DNA of 20,607 bases from positions 1 through 20,607 of the IMG/VR virus record IMGVR_UViG_3300007234_000145, one strand, 5' to 3'. A program made the position numbers and the translations under genes. The first letter of the stretch is position 1. Each line of letters starts with the position of its first letter. Below are positions 1,303 to 17,607 of the stretch, piece by piece. Under the pieces are notes generated by a model, which saw nothing but the letters and a program-made list of their open reading frames with translations, did no database searches and had not been told where the DNA came from. This stretch comes from a virus.

Positions 1303-2412
1303 TTATATCTTTGACAATTTCTCATTTATATAGTTAATCTGATTTTGTTGTTCTTTAACTACTTCAATCAAAAGACCAATTAATCCATTATAATTAACTG
1401 TTTTGGGGTCAGTATTGTTTACCAATTCTGGGAATACTCCTTCAATATTATCTGCAATTACACCAACAGATGGTTTATTATTCTCGATCCAATTGAATGA
1501 CACTCCATTTATTTTAAGAACTTTTTCTATCGGGTTTGAAATCAATTCGATATTGTTTTTAAGTTTCTTGTCAGATGTTGAATTAAAATTGGAAGCTGTA
1601 ACTTCTTCAATTACGTTAATATTCTGTGCGGTAATAATACCAGCAAAACTACCATTTCCTGACGGTAAAAGAGTGATTCCAATACCAGGACCATATCCAA
1701 CATTTAGACCAGTTCTTGCAGTTATAAAACCAATAGAGTCAATATTAGTGACATCTTCATAAGTTAATGTTCCTCCAATAGAGACATCACCAGAAAAAGT
1801 TGCGGTCCCACCTATAATATTAGGTAAATTTATAGTAGTAATGCCAATCGATTCTGCATTAATAACACTAAATGTCGAAACACCACTAACAGTTAGTTGT
1901 GTCAATGAACCGATACCACCAATAACACTCGTAGAAATACCAGATAAATCTACATAAGGTTGTTGAGAAACTATAATAGTGGAGATACCACCGGCAGAAG
2001 TACCAGTGGCTTCAATCTGCAATCCCCTAAAATCAAGTCCATTAAATGATGTGCCAGGACCAACATTATTACCCTCGTTAAATATGAGAAGACCATCAAT
2101 AGAACCCTGTGGTGTATTGGGAGCCCATTCTGGAGGTTGTCCTGGACCTCTTGATTTAAGCACAAGACCAGTAGATCCATTATCAAATGCGGAAGTTAGA
2201 CCTGGTTGTGCTTGATATAATAGTTGTCCTGTCCCACCACCGTAAATATTAGTTGCGTTTGTAGCACTAATAATTCCAGTTAGTCCTACACCAGAACCAA
2301 AATATGTAGTTGCATCAACACGACCAATTACTTCTAGTGAATTGAGATTTTCACTATAAGAAGATACACCAACTTTTAATCTTAATCTATCATTACTTGT
2401 GTAATTTGGCAT
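1303..2412 (-). CDS. Tail-fibre protein with C-terminal Peptidase_S74-type chaperone domain
   Basis: This 369-aa protein starts MPNYTSNDRL. It carries modules shared with the 1320-aa protein: 'TTYFGSGVGLTGI' near residues 36-48 and 'SGISTSVIGGIGSLTQL' near residues 158-174. The C-terminal 90 residues begin SDKKLKNNIE at Ser280-Asp281, with Lys285 following, and contain 'GVIADNIEGVFPELV'. This is the typical signature of the S74 intramolecular chaperone of phage fibres and endosialidases, which helps trimerise the fibre and is then released by self-cleavage before the conserved Ser. The last roughly 20 residues (VVKEQQNQINYINEKLSKI) look like a short coiled coil, usual for this domain. It follows the 114-aa gene with 5 bp between; only a weak TAAAG lies before the ATG. 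Function is a fibre/adhesin; the receptor is unknown. Confidence 0.88.
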   Translation of the reverse strand: MPNYTSNDRLRLKVGVSSYSENLNSLEVIGRVDATTYFGSGVGLTGIISATNATNIYGGGTGQLLYQAQPGLTSAFDNGSTGLVLKSRGPGQPPEWAPNTPQGSIDGLLIFNEGNNVGPGTSFNGLDFRGLQIEATGTSAGGISTIIVSQQPYVDLSGISTSVIGGIGSLTQLTVSGVSTFSVINAESIGITTINLPNIIGGTATFSGDVSIGGTLTYEDVTNIDSIGFITARTGLNVGYGPGIGITLLPSGNGSFAGIITAQNINVIEEVTASNFNSTSDKKLKNNIELISNPIEKVLKINGVSFNWIENNKPSVGVIADNIEGVFPELVNNTDPKTVNYNGLIGLLIEVVKEQQNQINYINEKLSKI

Positions 2413-6756: not shown

Positions 6757-6764
6757 TATTTATA
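6757..6764 (-). promoter_or_regulatory. T4-type late promoter (exact TATAAATA) for the 1320-aa gene
   Basis: TATAAATA reads on the minus strand, 28-35 bases upstream of ATG 6729. In T4 this octamer is the -10 element recognised by the phage late sigma gp55 with gp33 and the gp45 clamp. The match is exact. It faces away from an equally exact octamer on the plus strand eight bases further on. Confidence 0.8.
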
Positions 6765-6803: not shown

Positions 6804-7124
6804 ATGAAAAAGGGAGAATTCTGTCCATTAATTCAAAAGAAATGTGTTGAACATAAATGTGCCTGGTATACATGTGTAAGAGGAACAAATCCTAATACTG
6901 GGGAAGAGATTGATGATTGGCGTTGTGCGGTATCGTGGATGCCTATGATGACAGTCGAGATTGCACAAAAGTCAAATCAAACTGGAGCCGCTATAGAAAG
7001 TTTCAGAAACGAAGTAGTAGATGCAAATCATCAGAACCAACAACTTTATGCTCATGCCATCCAACAGGGAATTAATGTTGCTCAAATAACACCACTTAAC
7101 CCCCCTATGATAGCGGGTGAATAA
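6804..7124 (+). CDS. Cys-rich small protein, possible metal binder (106 aa), the only plus-strand gene
   Basis: The sequence starts MKKGEFCPLIQKKC. Cysteines stand at residues 7, 14, 19, 24 and 41, with His17 between, in a pattern C-x6-C-x4-C-x4-C; this could ligate Zn or an Fe-S cluster. A 'NPNTGEEIDDWRC' segment follows, then a helical Gln/Asn-rich C-terminal half ('GAAIESFRNEVVDANHQNQQ'). I believe related short proteins exist in other T4-like cyanophages, but I know no function. It is certainly coding by composition and has its own late promoter, so it is expected late in infection with the virion genes. It converges on the 875-aa gene with only 6 bp between stops and no visible terminator hairpin. 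No clear Shine-Dalgarno is seen before the ATG; a 12-bp palindrome overlaps the start. Confidence 0.85.
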   Translation: MKKGEFCPLIQKKCVEHKCAWYTCVRGTNPNTGEEIDDWRCAVSWMPMMTVEIAQKSNQTGAAIESFRNEVVDANHQNQQLYAHAIQQGINVAQITPLNPPMIAGE

Positions 7125-7130
7125 GAGTAT

Positions 7131-9758
7131 TTAGTCCTTTCTGCAGATGATAACATCGATGTACTGAACATCGAAGTTCATGTTGTTTACATTTCCTACA
7201 GAATCAACAGTAATTTCATGGTTATGGTTTTCAGTTTGTGCATTGATACTAAGATTGTGACTGTGAGCTGCGTTTGCAGCATTCGTGTTAATGCTATGAC
7301 TATGCGTAGCATTACCTGTTTTTACATTTTGTGCAGTATAACTTACGTTACCTTTACTTGCATTGAAGTTTTCTATTCTCCCTGCACCACTACCTGAAGC
7401 CGTTGGTGCATTACTCACCGAAACATTTGTGACGAAACTTCCACTTGCTCCTCCAGCGTTGATACCATGGCTATGAGATGCATTTGCACTATTAGCTGAC
7501 CCACCGTGACTATGATTTGCATTAGCCGTATTAGTTGACCCACCGTGACTATGATTGGCGGATTGTATTTCGGCACTAGCATTATGTTTATGAGTAGGTA
7601 CTGGAACAGACCTCTCGCTAAATGCACTAGTGAAAGTATTAGTACCACCAGAACCACCACCAGAACCAGAAACAACACGTAATGTTTTGTTATTATCTGT
7701 AGTCAATTTTGTCCAACCAGTTGGTGCAGATGCCTGATAGAACAACATTTTCGAACCAGGAGGAATCGCGATTCCTACTCCTACTGCATCATCGTATAGT
7801 TTCTTAAACGCTCTAGCACTTGGCGGTTGAACAGTTGAAGTACTTGTCGGTGGGTATGTATCCTGAACTATAACTGCACCTTGAATTGCAGTTGTAGCAG
7901 AAGGAAGTCTTGCAGGAGAAATTGTACCTGTTGTAATATTACCACCGTCAAGATCAGTAAGACCTGCACCATTACCAGTAAAGTTTCCTACCGTCAGTCG
8001 ATTGGTACTTGGATTATATTTAAATTGTCCACTATCAGAATCAATATATGGTCTTTGATAACCAGCAGATTGATTAAGACTGAATAATACTTGATAGTCT
8101 ATATTAGAACCAGTCTCGTCTACATTGATAAAATCTGCGTTCAGTGAAACACCAGTCAGATTACCAGTTACATCACCAACCAAATCACCAACAAGGTTTG
8201 AAACTGAGAATGTATTTGTTGATGGGTTATAGGTTAGTTCATTACTCTGAGAATCAATATAAGGTCTTTGGAAACCACCACCCTGATTAGCACTGAATAA
8301 TACTTGATGATTGGTGTTCTGTGTATTGGTATCTACATTGATAAAGTTTGCATTTGTTGCAATACCAAAAAGATTACCAATGATATTTTCAACAGTAAGA
8401 GTTTCTGTAGATGGATTATATGTTAGATGACTATTGTCAGTATCAATATACATCCTCTTATAATCAGTTGCACCTTGCTCACTAAAGATAACCTGAAAAT
8501 CAGTATTAGTGTTTATTTCATCTACATTAATATTATCCGCACCAGTGGCAATACCAGATACATTACCTACAAATCTAGTACAAGATAGTACATTTGTAGA
8601 AGGAACATAGGTTAATTGATTAACATCAGAGTCAATTAAGTGAAGTGGATAGTTTGAACCCAGACCTAAATTATTAACAAAAGAAACCTGATGTGTAGCA
8701 CTACTACTTGTAGTCTGAACACTGACTCTATCTGCACCAGTAGAAACACCAATGAATGCTGTTTGATCCTGTCTTACTGTAACAATACCAGCACTAACAC
8801 TGAAATTATTACTCTTGATATTATTGATTGTGCCGATACCGGATACAAAAATATTTTCAAAATCACTACGGTCATCACTAATTAAACTTTTCCTTACTCT
8901 CAAACTATCAACAGTAAGATCTGACCCGATCGATGTTAGTTTAATAGCACCACCCATGCCATTAACATTCGATGCTTGGTAGTAAAGTACGCCTGGTGCA
9001 TTATATGGAATTCTAAGAGTCAGAATACCAACTTGAGTCCCATTACCTTCTACTCCATCATTATAGATATTGTTAAGATTTGCTGTTGGTTCAGTCTTAA
9101 TATAAAATGGGAATCCACCAGAATCTATATTAAATTCATATTTCTTTCCACGTATTAAGAAAAGATCTGGATTATCTGCGTTTTCAGTAAAACCAATACT
9201 TACGGGGTCACCAGTTCCAGCAATAAATCTAAAGGTATCACTATTAAATTCTTCTACAGTAAATTTAGTAAATAATTCTGCTTCATTTCCAAGTAAAGTA
9301 TTTGTTACAGTAACATTTGTAAATCCAACTGTTCCACCAGCAGAAATTTGACCTGCCAAAGATGTTGCCTTAATGTTACCAGTAACTGTCAAGTCACCAT
9401 AAACATACTCTGCAGTCTGACCAATCGAAACTGGTCCAATAACATCAAGAGTATATGCAGGAATGTCAGAGTTGATACCAATTTTTTTGGTCAGAGTAGA
9501 ACTCGTAAATACTGTTCCACCAACACCTACATCAAGACCAATATTAGAAGTAGTAACACCAGTGGTTACAAGTCTTTGGGCAGTAATTGTGGTACCAACG
9601 GCAAGATGTTTACTGACTTCAGTATCACCAATAATTACAAGTTTCTTGTCTGGTGTTGTAGTTCCAATACCGATTTTATCACTATCTGCGTCGGCATAGA
9701 TTAAATTTTCATTGACTTGAATGCCATTTCTTATGACAAAATCCTTATCTACTGCCAT
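7131..9758 (-). CDS. Tail fibre with cupredoxin-like domain, internal repeats and gp37-like seven-HxH tip (875 aa)
   Basis: The N-terminal about 150 residues are beta modules ('KIGIGTTTPDKKL', 'LTVTGNIKATSLAG'). Residues about 165-275 resemble a cupredoxin fold ('LFLIRGKKYEF', 'FPFYIKTE', 'APGVLYYQASN', 'MGGAIKL') whose copper-ligand positions appear substituted. Residues about 350-595 hold four imperfect repeats around 'YIDSDSxxLTYNPSTNxL' and 'FINVDETxxNxDYQVLFS'. A tail-collar-like segment 'KMLFYQASAPTGWTKL' starts near residue 669. Residues about 723-847 carry seven HxH motifs (one HKH, five HSH, one HNH). In the T4 long-tail-fibre tip gp37, HxH motifs from three chains coordinate a line of iron ions in a needle. 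The C-terminus is 'YIDVIICRKD'. Inferred role: receptor-binding trimeric fibre. A late-promoter-like GATAAATA lies upstream, overlapping the previous stop. Confidence 0.88.
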   Translation of the reverse strand: MAVDKDFVIRNGIQVNENLIYADADSDKIGIGTTTPDKKLVIIGDTEVSKHLAVGTTITAQRLVTTGVTTSNIGLDVGVGGTVFTSSTLTKKIGINSDIPAYTLDVIGPVSIGQTAEYVYGDLTVTGNIKATSLAGQISAGGTVGFTNVTVTNTLLGNEAELFTKFTVEEFNSDTFRFIAGTGDPVSIGFTENADNPDLFLIRGKKYEFNIDSGGFPFYIKTEPTANLNNIYNDGVEGNGTQVGILTLRIPYNAPGVLYYQASNVNGMGGAIKLTSIGSDLTVDSLRVRKSLISDDRSDFENIFVSGIGTINNIKSNNFSVSAGIVTVRQDQTAFIGVSTGADRVSVQTTSSSATHQVSFVNNLGLGSNYPLHLIDSDVNQLTYVPSTNVLSCTRFVGNVSGIATGADNINVDEINTNTDFQVIFSEQGATDYKRMYIDTDNSHLTYNPSTETLTVENIIGNLFGIATNANFINVDTNTQNTNHQVLFSANQGGGFQRPYIDSQSNELTYNPSTNTFSVSNLVGDLVGDVTGNLTGVSLNADFINVDETGSNIDYQVLFSLNQSAGYQRPYIDSDSGQFKYNPSTNRLTVGNFTGNGAGLTDLDGGNITTGTISPARLPSATTAIQGAVIVQDTYPPTSTSTVQPPSARAFKKLYDDAVGVGIAIPPGSKMLFYQASAPTGWTKLTTDNNKTLRVVSGSGGGSGGTNTFTSAFSERSVPVPTHKHNASAEIQSANHSHGGSTNTANANHSHGGSANSANASHSHGINAGGASGSFVTNVSVSNAPTASGSGAGRIENFNASKGNVSYTAQNVKTGNATHSHSINTNAANAAHSHNLSINAQTENHNHEITVDSVGNVNNMNFDVQYIDVIICRKD
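7975..8710 (-). repeat. Four imperfect 63-69-aa coding repeats in the 875-aa fibre
   Basis: The four units share 'hQVLFSxNQxxxYxRPYIDSxSxxLTYNPSTNxLxVxN', then 'GNLxGxATxADFINVDExxxN'. The most N-terminal unit is the most diverged ('HLIDSDVNQLTYVPSTNVL'). The variable length between units comes from inserted 'GDLVGDVTGNLTG'-like steps. Boundaries are approximate. Confidence 0.75.
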
Positions 9759-15008: not shown

Positions 15009-15302
15009 TTATAATGTTCTCTCTAATCTATTTGTTGCTTGGTCAGGAAAGTCTCTCGGGCGACTATCAGTTGCATTATCAGTTCTGGGTGAACCTTCGT
15101 TTGCCTTCATTGTATGCTGGTAGTTGATTCTCTTGTATCTAATACAGAATGGATCGGGCATCCAGTATGTTACTTGCCAATTAATTGATGAGTTTAACTC
15201 TAGATGTTTTTCTACAGAATGGTTGAAGATACCAATCTGAATATATCCATCATGAGTAACACATCTACCATTACCAATATCAACCACAAATAATTGTTTC
15301 AT
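15009..15302 (-). CDS. Hypothetical protein (97 aa) coupled to the upstream small gene
   Basis: The chosen start is ATG 15302, giving MKQLFVVDIGNGRCVTHDGY. This ATG overlaps the TGA of the 51-aa frame as ATGA, and GGAGGA sits directly before it. That is too close for classical initiation but fits re-initiation. A TTG at 15314 in the same frame is less likely. The N-terminal half is compact ('GYIQIGIFNHSVEKHLELNSSINWQVTYWMPDPFCI'); the last about 30 residues are polar and probably disordered. Function unknown. Its place in the late baseplate operon suggests a role in virion assembly or late infection. Confidence 0.72.
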   Translation of the reverse strand: MKQLFVVDIGNGRCVTHDGYIQIGIFNHSVEKHLELNSSINWQVTYWMPDPFCIRYKRINYQHTMKANEGSPRTDNATDSRPRDFPDQATNRLERTL

Positions 15303-15788: not shown

Positions 15789-16502
15789 CTACTTCTTCTT
15801 CTGTCCTCTGACATCATAGTCATACCCAGAGATGGAGAACTGATCAGAACTTCCTGGATACTTGGCAGGTGTCTCTCCCTCATACTCAACAATCAATGGT
15901 TCTCCATCAATTCTTTGTGCAGTAATCGTATAGAAACACTCAATAGGACCACCCAGATTGTTTCTAATCTGTATTCTCTTACCCCATTCGATTGACTCAA
16001 CAAAGAGTTCTTGATAACAACCAATTGGAGTTAGATTGACACTGATGGATTCAGGATCAACCAATCCTTGCCAGTATGTAGGACAGGTGATCGTAGTTCC
16101 TTTACACTTTCCTCGAATATAAACACCAGCCTCTGGACCCTCCATACAGATGTGTCTCAGTCTATGACCATCTTTGTTAGGATGTTTAATATCAAATCCT
16201 TTCCAAGATTGGACATTAATGTTCCCAGAAAATGTAGGAGCAGTTACAGTACCAGAGAAAGTTGCAGTGGCACCAGTCAGGTTTGCATTGACCTGGAGTT
16301 GATCAATTTGTGCTGTCGCATGATAATACGGTGGACACTGAGGTTTTGAATATGGGTTTGGAGTGGGAGTTTCTGCGTAATTATTAAAAGCCTTTTGAAT
16401 ATACGAGAAATTACCTGATGGTAATCCTGTGGCTTGACCATCTGAACAATCTTGTTTTCCTGGTGAACCTGGTTTAAATGGACCAAATAATGAGTCTGTC
16501 AT
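15789..16502 (-). CDS. Putative virion tip/needle protein, paralogue 3 (237 aa)
   Basis: The N-terminal about 75 residues are Pro/Gly-rich ('MTDSLFGPFKPGSPGKQDCSD'). A short beta stretch follows ('IDQLQVNANLTGATATFSG'), resembling fibre strands. The C-terminal domain (about 102-237) begins 'GFDIKHPNKDGHRLRHICMEGPEAGVYIRG' and continues 'PTYWQGLVDPESISVNLTPIG', 'PIECFYTITAQRIDGEPLIVEYEGETPAKYPG'. This domain is shared with the two genes before it. I recognise the 'RLRHxCxEGPExxVYxRG' signature from marine T4-like phage structural genes, but its molecular role is unknown. Its ATG overlaps the previous stop as ATGA, so translation is coupled. The C-terminus is basic (QKKK). Confidence 0.82.
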   Translation of the reverse strand: MTDSLFGPFKPGSPGKQDCSDGQATGLPSGNFSYIQKAFNNYAETPTPNPYSKPQCPPYYHATAQIDQLQVNANLTGATATFSGTVTAPTFSGNINVQSWKGFDIKHPNKDGHRLRHICMEGPEAGVYIRGKCKGTTITCPTYWQGLVDPESISVNLTPIGCYQELFVESIEWGKRIQIRNNLGGPIECFYTITAQRIDGEPLIVEYEGETPAKYPGSSDQFSISGYDYDVRGQKKK

Positions 16503-17275
16503 GATTTAATATCGTAATGGTATCCTACAATTGAGTATTGATCGTTATTTCCTGGATAATCTGCAGGTGTCTCACCTGGATATTCAGGTATCAAACTTTC
16601 CCCATCTTTTCTCTCTGCATAAGCATGATAGAAACAGTGGATTGGAACATCAGATCGTGATTGAAGATAAATCTTATCTTCGTCAATTTTTTTCACGATG
16701 ATGTCTTGATGATCACCTATTGGTGTCAAACTGACTGTAATAGATTCTCGATGAACAAAATCCTTCCAGTATGTAGGAAGGTCAATATAATCTTTATTCT
16801 TTAGTGTTCCTCTAAAGTATACATCATTGGTGGGCCCTTCTGGACAAGTATGTCTCAACCTCCAACCTTCTTTTGAAGGGTGAACAATATCAAAGTTCTT
16901 CTTCAAAGATAGAATATGAACTCCACAATTAGAAATAATTTCACCTTGTGCTGCTACGTGTTGACCAACAACAACTGAAGCATTGGTATTCACCATACCC
17001 ATCAAAGCGGTTGAACCAACAACAGCCAAAGAGAATGGATTAGATGGTGGTCCATAACAAAACCCACCAGGGATTAACGGAGGAGTTGATTCTGGATTGA
17101 TCAGAGGACCAATCATTGATGATGCCCATACATTAGGGAAAGTTGGAGTTCCTGTAATCGTAGGGCCCTGCATATAACCAGACCCACGGATTTCTGCTGG
17201 TCCTCTACCCAGACATTCTGGGTTTCCTAGTCCAACAAATAATCGTTTACCAACATTTAAGTCAGGTACCTTCAT
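16499..17275 (-). CDS. Putative virion tip/needle protein, paralogue 2 (258 aa)
   Basis: It starts MKVPDLNVGKRLFVGLGNPE. The N-terminal half (about 1-120) is a Gly/Pro-rich beta segment ('GSGYMQGPTITGTPTFPNVW', 'ALMGMVNTNASVVVGQHVAAQGEIIS'). The C-terminal domain (about 127-258) is 'NFDIVHPSKEGWRLRHTCPEGPTNDVYFRG', 'LPTYWKDFVHRESITVSLTPIG', 'CFYHAYAERKDGESLIPEYPGETPADYPGNNDQ'. Both ends overlap neighbours by ATGA, and AAGGAA lies about 12 bases before the start. The N-terminal half differs from paralogue 3, so the pair looks like different stems carrying the same head. Confidence 0.82.
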   Translation of the reverse strand: MKVPDLNVGKRLFVGLGNPECLGRGPAEIRGSGYMQGPTITGTPTFPNVWASSMIGPLINPESTPPLIPGGFCYGPPSNPFSLAVVGSTALMGMVNTNASVVVGQHVAAQGEIISNCGVHILSLKKNFDIVHPSKEGWRLRHTCPEGPTNDVYFRGTLKNKDYIDLPTYWKDFVHRESITVSLTPIGDHQDIIVKKIDEDKIYLQSRSDVPIHCFYHAYAERKDGESLIPEYPGETPADYPGNNDQYSIVGYHYDIKS

Positions 17276-17607
17276 GATTTGTTCTTTCCTTCTGTCTTAA
17301 GTCTTGGGACATCCTTTCGTTCACCATATACATGGTAATAACAGTCAATAGGAACACCTGGATTTGAATCGAGTATGACTTGATTATCCTGAATACCTTT
17401 CACAATAATACTTTGTGCCATACCGATAGGTGTAATTGATACCGTAATAGAAAGTTCTTCTACAAGGTCTCTCCACACCTCAGGTAGTTCAATTCTATCG
17501 TGACCTCTCAATCTACCTCTATAGTATACACCATGCTCAGGACCATGTAAAGAGGAGTACTCAAGTTTTTTTCCTTTCTTTTGTGGATGTGGAATATTTA
17601 AAGTCAT
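17272..17607 (-). CDS. Stand-alone copy of the LRH-EGPE-type domain, paralogue 1 (111 aa)
   Basis: The whole protein is the domain found at the C-termini of the two following genes: 'NIPHPQKKGKKLEYSSLHGPEHGVYYRG', 'IELPEVWRDLVEELSITVSITPIG', 'PIDCYYHVYGERKDVPRL'. It lacks the N-terminal stem, and the usual LRHxC is replaced by LEYSS, so it is the most diverged copy. It also lacks the 'EYPGETPADYPG' tail. The ATG overlaps the stop of the preceding gene by one base (TAATG) and the stop overlaps the next ATG. Function unknown; placement directly after gp5 and the needle-like protein suggests a baseplate-tip role. Confidence 0.8.
   Translation of the reverse strand: MTLNIPHPQKKGKKLEYSSLHGPEHGVYYRGRLRGHDRIELPEVWRDLVEELSITVSITPIGMAQSIIVKGIQDNQVILDSNPGVPIDCYYHVYGERKDVPRLKTEGKNKS

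Follow-up and report, generated by a model that had tools for sequence, protein, structure and literature searches.

HxH iron sites are already known from tail fibres, namely T4 gp37 and the pyocins, and HxH tips of marine phages have also been published. The tip of T4 gp37 is reported to hold seven irons, and H929 and H931 are essential (PMC6957217). Its inter-subunit contacts, G964 with H929 and G921 with F970 (PMC6957217), place the returning motifs between the outgoing ones. In the sea, the fibres of Alteromonas phages R22Y (gp12, PMC11705849) and V22 (gp23, PMC10579305) carry six and three HxH motifs, respectively, for which iron binding has been proposed. HxH metal needles are a widespread way of building a phage tip. 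The authors of the pyocin work note that there are no experimental data for the role of the metal in folding (PMC6116203).

The stretch of DNA analysed here (the window) comprises the 20,607 nucleotides of a viral record in IMG/VR and is assigned to a T4-like cyanomyovirus, a virus of marine cyanobacteria. The nearest named phages are S-B43 (filed under Kyanoviridae), RN05-S and RB11-B. The recognised genes, found between 1303 and 20584, include fibre and baseplate genes and lie on the minus strand, except for one small gene. One of them (1303-2412, minus strand) encodes a 369-aa fibre with a C-terminal Peptidase_S74 chaperone domain (PF13884, 1.4e-12) and is a second, probably self-cleaving fibre of the same cluster. 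About 294 bases at 15009-15302 match, at 80-83% DNA identity, a gene adjoining an annotated endonuclease in Syn1 (also S-RIM44 and S-RIM12); the flanks show no match, and the segment is read as a shuttled small gene. Two adjoining paralogues at 15789-17275 (minus strand; phrog_17490/28536) have no assigned function, and the 111-aa ORF that follows them (17272-17607) is similar to them by eye. A plasmid search gave no match.

Seven HxH motifs at the end of the fibre

The fibre of interest and the parts of its tip are as follows.

7131-9758, minus strand: 875-aa tail fibre (P0001), from the ORF, phrog_8215 and the S-B43 alignment
7593-7766, minus strand: N-terminal collar-like segment, residues 665-722 (IPPGSKMLFYQASAPTGWTKLTT...), the best-conserved tip part in alignments of relatives
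7467-7592, minus strand: putative outgoing needle arm, HxH 1-4 (residues 723, 736, 749, 762), 13-residue pitch
7464-7556, minus strand: 39-base tandem repeat, 2.4 copies, equal to the 13-codon HxH unit (Tandem Repeats Finder)
7305-7466, minus strand: head, residues 765-818, the least conserved tip part (mean majority fraction 0.60)
7218-7304, minus strand: putative returning needle arm, HxH 5-7 (residues 819, 832, 845), 13-residue pitch
7134-7217, minus strand: C-terminal collar-like strand, residues 848-875 (...MNFDVQYIDVIICRKD), with an end conserved among relatives

The N-terminal part of the protein resembles cyanophage tail fibre and 'baseplate wedge initiator' proteins: residues 1-479 match phrog_8215 (7e-6) and residues 1-739 are 51% identical to the S-B43 'tail fiber protein'. 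The fibre ends in a 230-aa tip, in which all 14 histidines sit in seven HxH motifs (HKH723, HSH736, HSH749, HSH762, HSH819, HSH832 and HNH845). The intervals of 13, 13, 13, 57, 13 and 13 residues describe four motifs out, a 57-residue head spacing and three motifs back. The initial annotation had reported these seven motifs (HKH, five HSH and HNH) at 7218-7591; they are indeed present, on the minus strand, and the start is correct, with the end falling one base further on, at 7592. Composition-preserving shuffles of the tip (n=20,000) contained 0.79 HxH motifs on average and five at most, never seven, and no HxH was found in any of the ten other window ORFs checked. The 39-base repeat codes for the outgoing arm, with an 85% match between copies. 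Needles may lengthen by duplication of this unit; close relatives nonetheless keep seven motifs.

Selection acts on the motif histidines. Among 13 seven-motif sequences, that is, the window and 12 relatives whose tips share 52-98% identity with it, all 14 are invariant while the X residue, the linkers and the head vary. They make up 14 of the 17 invariant columns among the 71 of the needle (hypergeometric P 3e-12). Both CAT and CAC are used at 13 of the 14 histidine columns, so it is the protein that is conserved and not the DNA. The mean majority fraction is 0.91 in the N-terminal collar, 0.72 in the outgoing arm, 0.60 in the head, 0.65 in the returning arm and 0.75 in the C-terminal collar, which together with the invariant histidines indicates that the head is free to vary and the histidines are not. 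A variable head makes receptor binding by this fibre plausible, with residues 765-818 as the probable receptor-contact loop.

The pattern argues for a metal-pinned needle, with a probability of about 0.8. The fibre C-terminus would form an intertwined needle, presumably trimeric, in which each chain runs out from the collar with HxH 1-4, makes the variable head loop and returns antiparallel with HxH 5-7. At each motif, three symmetry-related HxH copies would offer six histidines to one metal ion on the axis. The trimer would thus hold seven ions, Fe(II) being the likeliest, and the planes of the two arms would interleave in an order inferred from T4 gp37. The ions would hold a stalk rich in Gly, Ser and Asn, with few hydrophobic residues, in register and keep it stiff, leaving the head to vary freely, and the collar-like N- and C-terminal segments would close the needle. 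AlphaFold2 monomers of the tip (28 sequences) and of a short two-HxH relative (22 sequences) reached a pLDDT of 57 and 55 and a pTM of 0.26 and 0.24. The tip model has two strands, at 772-783 and 795-806, and is otherwise poor. A Foldseek search with it returned nothing credible, so that modelling lends the needle no structural support; phmmer and profile searches of the PDB found no relative of the tip.

The antiparallel needle predicts regularities that can be sought in other fibres. Unrelated ladders were gathered by DNA-pattern scans of IMG/VR. A three-motif pattern gave mostly chance matches, from which ORFs with a periodic, Gly/Ser/Asn-rich context were kept. Arrays with HxH every seven residues were left out of the two-armed set, being mostly devoid of a returning arm. 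Relatives of the window tip have from one or two HxH (short collar proteins) up to eight, and unrelated two-armed ladders up to 15. Of 69 two-armed ladder clusters, 49 have exactly one motif more on the way out than on the way back, and three have fewer on the way out. The pitch of the two arms is correlated (rho 0.68, P 1e-10) across these 69 clusters, which are not fully independent; in three scans, four motifs in a row had to share a pitch of 12, 13 or 14, a choice that skews the pitch values and leaves the relation of one arm to the other untouched. In the same clusters, an irregular interval on one side of the head tends to have its mirror image on the other (173 observed against 225 +/- 11.5 after shuffling, with 0 of 5000 shuffles as low). 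Ladder L332, for example, runs 13, 13, 13, 11, 13 out and 13, 11, 13, 13 back, and L036 runs 13, 15, 12, 9 out and 13, 15 back. The one extra outgoing motif, the common pitch and the mirrored intervals match the prediction, as far as sequences can tell. Such a rule (usually n+1 out and n back, with equal pitch and mirrored changes) would make the metal count and the head position readable from the sequences of uncultured phages. The longest two-armed ladders, L138, L226, L258 and L285, have 13-15 motifs spaced 12-14 residues apart. Another architecture is seen in L335, L395, L392 and others, in which HxH recurs every seven residues, up to about 30 times, with no returning arm.

By analogy with the T4 and pyocin structures, the metal is likely to be iron. 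Metals are indistinguishable from sequence, and the HxH of T4 gp12 holds zinc in its crystal, although that protein was refolded with a zinc salt (PMC6116203). A needle held together by zinc, by nickel or by a mixture of ions, iron being present in some structures only, is nevertheless unlikely, as the other solved HxH fibres and spikes (gp37, R-pyocins, P2 and phi92) hold iron (PMC6116203).

A four-cysteine gene behind collar/HxH tips

Directly behind the fibre gene lies a 106-aa partner gene that the initial annotation had missed. It is the sole plus-strand gene inside the minus-strand fibre cluster (6804-7124), and is here called Cys4.

6804-7124, plus strand: 106-aa Cys4 protein (C7, C14, C19, C41), convergent with the fibre gene and ending 6 bases from its stop codon
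6773-6780, plus strand: TATAAATA, late promoter box of the T4 type, 23 bases upstream of the start codon of Cys4
6757-6764, minus strand: TATAAATA box on the opposite strand, before the gene of a 1320-aa fibre

C7, C19 and C41 are present in all 84 aligned sequences and C14 in 90%. Where C14 is absent, most sequences have a cysteine nearby at a different spacing, which in some gives a CxxC. Searches of Pfam, NCBIfam and PHROGs with the family gave no convincing match, only weak ones to single members, and there was no match among PDB chains. Cys4 is encoded in at least 595 IMG/VR stretches against 12 of 50,697 phage records. The TATAAATA box and the ATAAATA core (TATAAATA or GATAAATA) that precedes Cys4 in those convergent relatives that were inspected suggest late expression; the window holds two TATAAATA boxes where 2.4 are expected by chance, which makes the promoter evidence weak.

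The association of Cys4 with collar/HxH tips was counted at loci fetched only by tip similarity or the HxH DNA pattern, Cys4 not being used as a query. It is present in the fetched DNA of 36 of 37 collar/HxH tip clusters (the exception being L076), whereas among 50 clusters of other ladders it is present in four. Of these four, L036, L060 and L528 share this kind of C-terminal strand. P values for this linkage overstate its certainty, since related phages do not count as independent events, and the spread across lineages is the stronger argument. The distance to the fibre is within 300 bases in 58 of 65 cases, and many of the non-adjacent ones look like runs of collar genes with Cys4 behind the last. 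When Cys4 itself was the starting point, an HxH ORF within 300 bases was scored at 61 of 80 loci, one of them a false match (L615); of four loci scored as having no HxH ORF, two (L566 and L599) turned out to have a collar with HxH. All eight phage records matched by the tip itself also hold Cys4. In the group of the window the two genes are convergent; they share a strand in Roseobacter phage CRP-361 (Autographiviridae), P-SSM2, S-SCSM1 and two bacterial genome contigs. The contigs, from Solimicrobium silvestre and a gammaproteobacterial MAG, were found by a scan with the Cys4 alignment, a scan of genome contigs with a single Cys4 sequence having found nothing. The best reading of a linkage that outlasts both inversion and a move between phage families is a functional one. 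In P-SSM2 and CRP-361 (L541:5122-5643, L540:5023-5460) the gene next after Cys4 encodes a 'MKLSIIP...' protein that carries the annotation tail fiber or tail assembly chaperone protein, which makes a trio of fibre, Cys4 and assembly gene.

On balance, Cys4 probably serves the tip as a chaperone or in its assembly. It would be expressed late and act on the constant part of the tip (collar plus HxH), most likely as a folding chaperone, and would perhaps deliver or hold metal through its four cysteines. Cys4 is far more conserved than the tip (74-96% identity to the copy in the window where the tips share 47-70%), and so it probably acts on the constant part. Cys4 also accompanies collars with one or two HxH; its partner may therefore be the collar and not the metal ladder, and a collar chaperone and a metal loader are inseparable here. 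The four cysteines, arranged as CxxC in some members, suggest a metal site. A more tentative proposal is that the family is a phage-encoded metallochaperone that carries iron (or zinc) on the four cysteines and loads HxH tips during trimerisation. If true, 'collar/HxH tip plus Cys4' would be a module complete in itself for assembling metal needles. In its proposed role, Cys4 resembles T4 gp38, the assembly chaperone of gp37, whose gene also lies directly behind the fibre gene; gp38 differs in having 183 aa and being encoded on the same strand as gene 37, and the two are compared by position and role, not sequence.

The same position behind the fibre would suit a part of the virion, either a tip cap or an adhesin like T2-type gp38, which the T4 record describes as an adhesin in the T2 group. 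An adhesin under host-range selection would hardly be so much more conserved than the tip it sits on, and this reading is improbable. Fibre regions recombine often. Cys4 could accordingly have an unrelated job, its place by the fibre reflecting no more than a host-range cassette that is swapped as a unit, and in S-SCSM2R the collar match and Cys4 are indeed about 38 kb apart. This is rather less probable still, given that the linkage persists when the genes are inverted, across phage families that are unrelated and in two contigs from bacterial genomes, and that Cys4 is missing from other HxH ladders.

The new element here is the Cys4 partner family tied to collar/HxH tips, which did not appear in a literature search limited to open-access papers. 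Being nearly one-to-one with HxH tips, the family offers a direct handle on metal entry, and its gene can serve to locate receptor-binding tips in marine viromes.

Iron demand and the comparison with described fibres

In the initial annotation the tip gives the virion a metal (iron) demand in an ocean where iron is scarce. A large demand can be rejected by our own arithmetic: with six fibres a virion would hold about 42 ions, or less than 1 pM at 1e10 virions per litre. The Ferrojan-horse idea was reportedly put forward by Bonnain in 2016. An ecological iron demand is not a new proposal, and the work on alterophage R22Y takes up this hypothesis (PMC11705849). A published version, cited there (PMC11705849), has phages reach siderophore receptors via tail-fibre iron, but surface-exposed HxH motifs that bind host metal, lipopolysaccharide or siderophore receptors directly, with no axial stack, are very improbable here, since the fixed pitch, the mirrored arms and the invariance of every histidine suit a stack inside the needle, variation is concentrated in the exposed head, and the Vi01-like phages that were tried infected Salmonella deficient in TonB and FeoB as usual (PMC10892097).

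Compared with the fibres of R22Y and V22, the needle proposed here belongs to another phage family, and in R22Y the motifs lie N-terminal to the receptor-binding region; the accessible parts of both papers mention no Cys4 partner (PMC11705849, PMC10579305). The R1 and R2 pyocin fibres likewise combine HxH motifs of three chains around a buried octahedral iron, with the difference that they have one site per fibre and a lectin-like tip. The tail fibre of Synechococcus phage S-B43 (QDH50551.1) has a homologous tip, with a convergent Cys4 gene (QDH50552.1) behind it. It differs in having six HxH motifs, spaced 13, 12, 9, 45 and 13 residues apart, and the annotation of the two genes goes no further than tail fiber protein and hypothetical protein.

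The closest likeness in build is to T4 gp37, with which the tip had been called homologous or convergent. The tip of gp37 (2XGF, domains D10/D11) also has exactly seven HxH motifs that hold all 14 of its histidines, both fibres follow an out-and-back course with a head between the arms (read in the window from the sequence pattern), and the terminal sequence of gp37, HGHTITVNSTGN..., resembles the HNHEITVDSVGN... of the window. The shared build, with its collar-like closure, stands. A profile comparison, which had been suggested as a check, gave a match between the tip family and gp37 relatives (hhalign probability 88.7, E 2.5e-6) that fell to a probability of 0.2 when the histidines were masked. 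The Pfam Collar domain (PF07484), detectable in gp37 at 1e-11, has no match in the tip, in the tip's relatives or in three short ones. One short relative, L066, matches phrog_2097 (4e-8), a PHROG also matched by gp37, which is an indirect link only. The arms differ as well: gp37 has three motifs out and four back, at intervals of 32, 14, 37, 14, 9 and 9, whereas the window has four out and three back, with a uniform 13 and a head spacing of 57. Behind gp37 lies gp38, with no Cys4 in the fetched region, and behind the window fibre lies Cys4. On present sequence evidence, the window tip probably works like gp37, whether or not it belongs to the same family.
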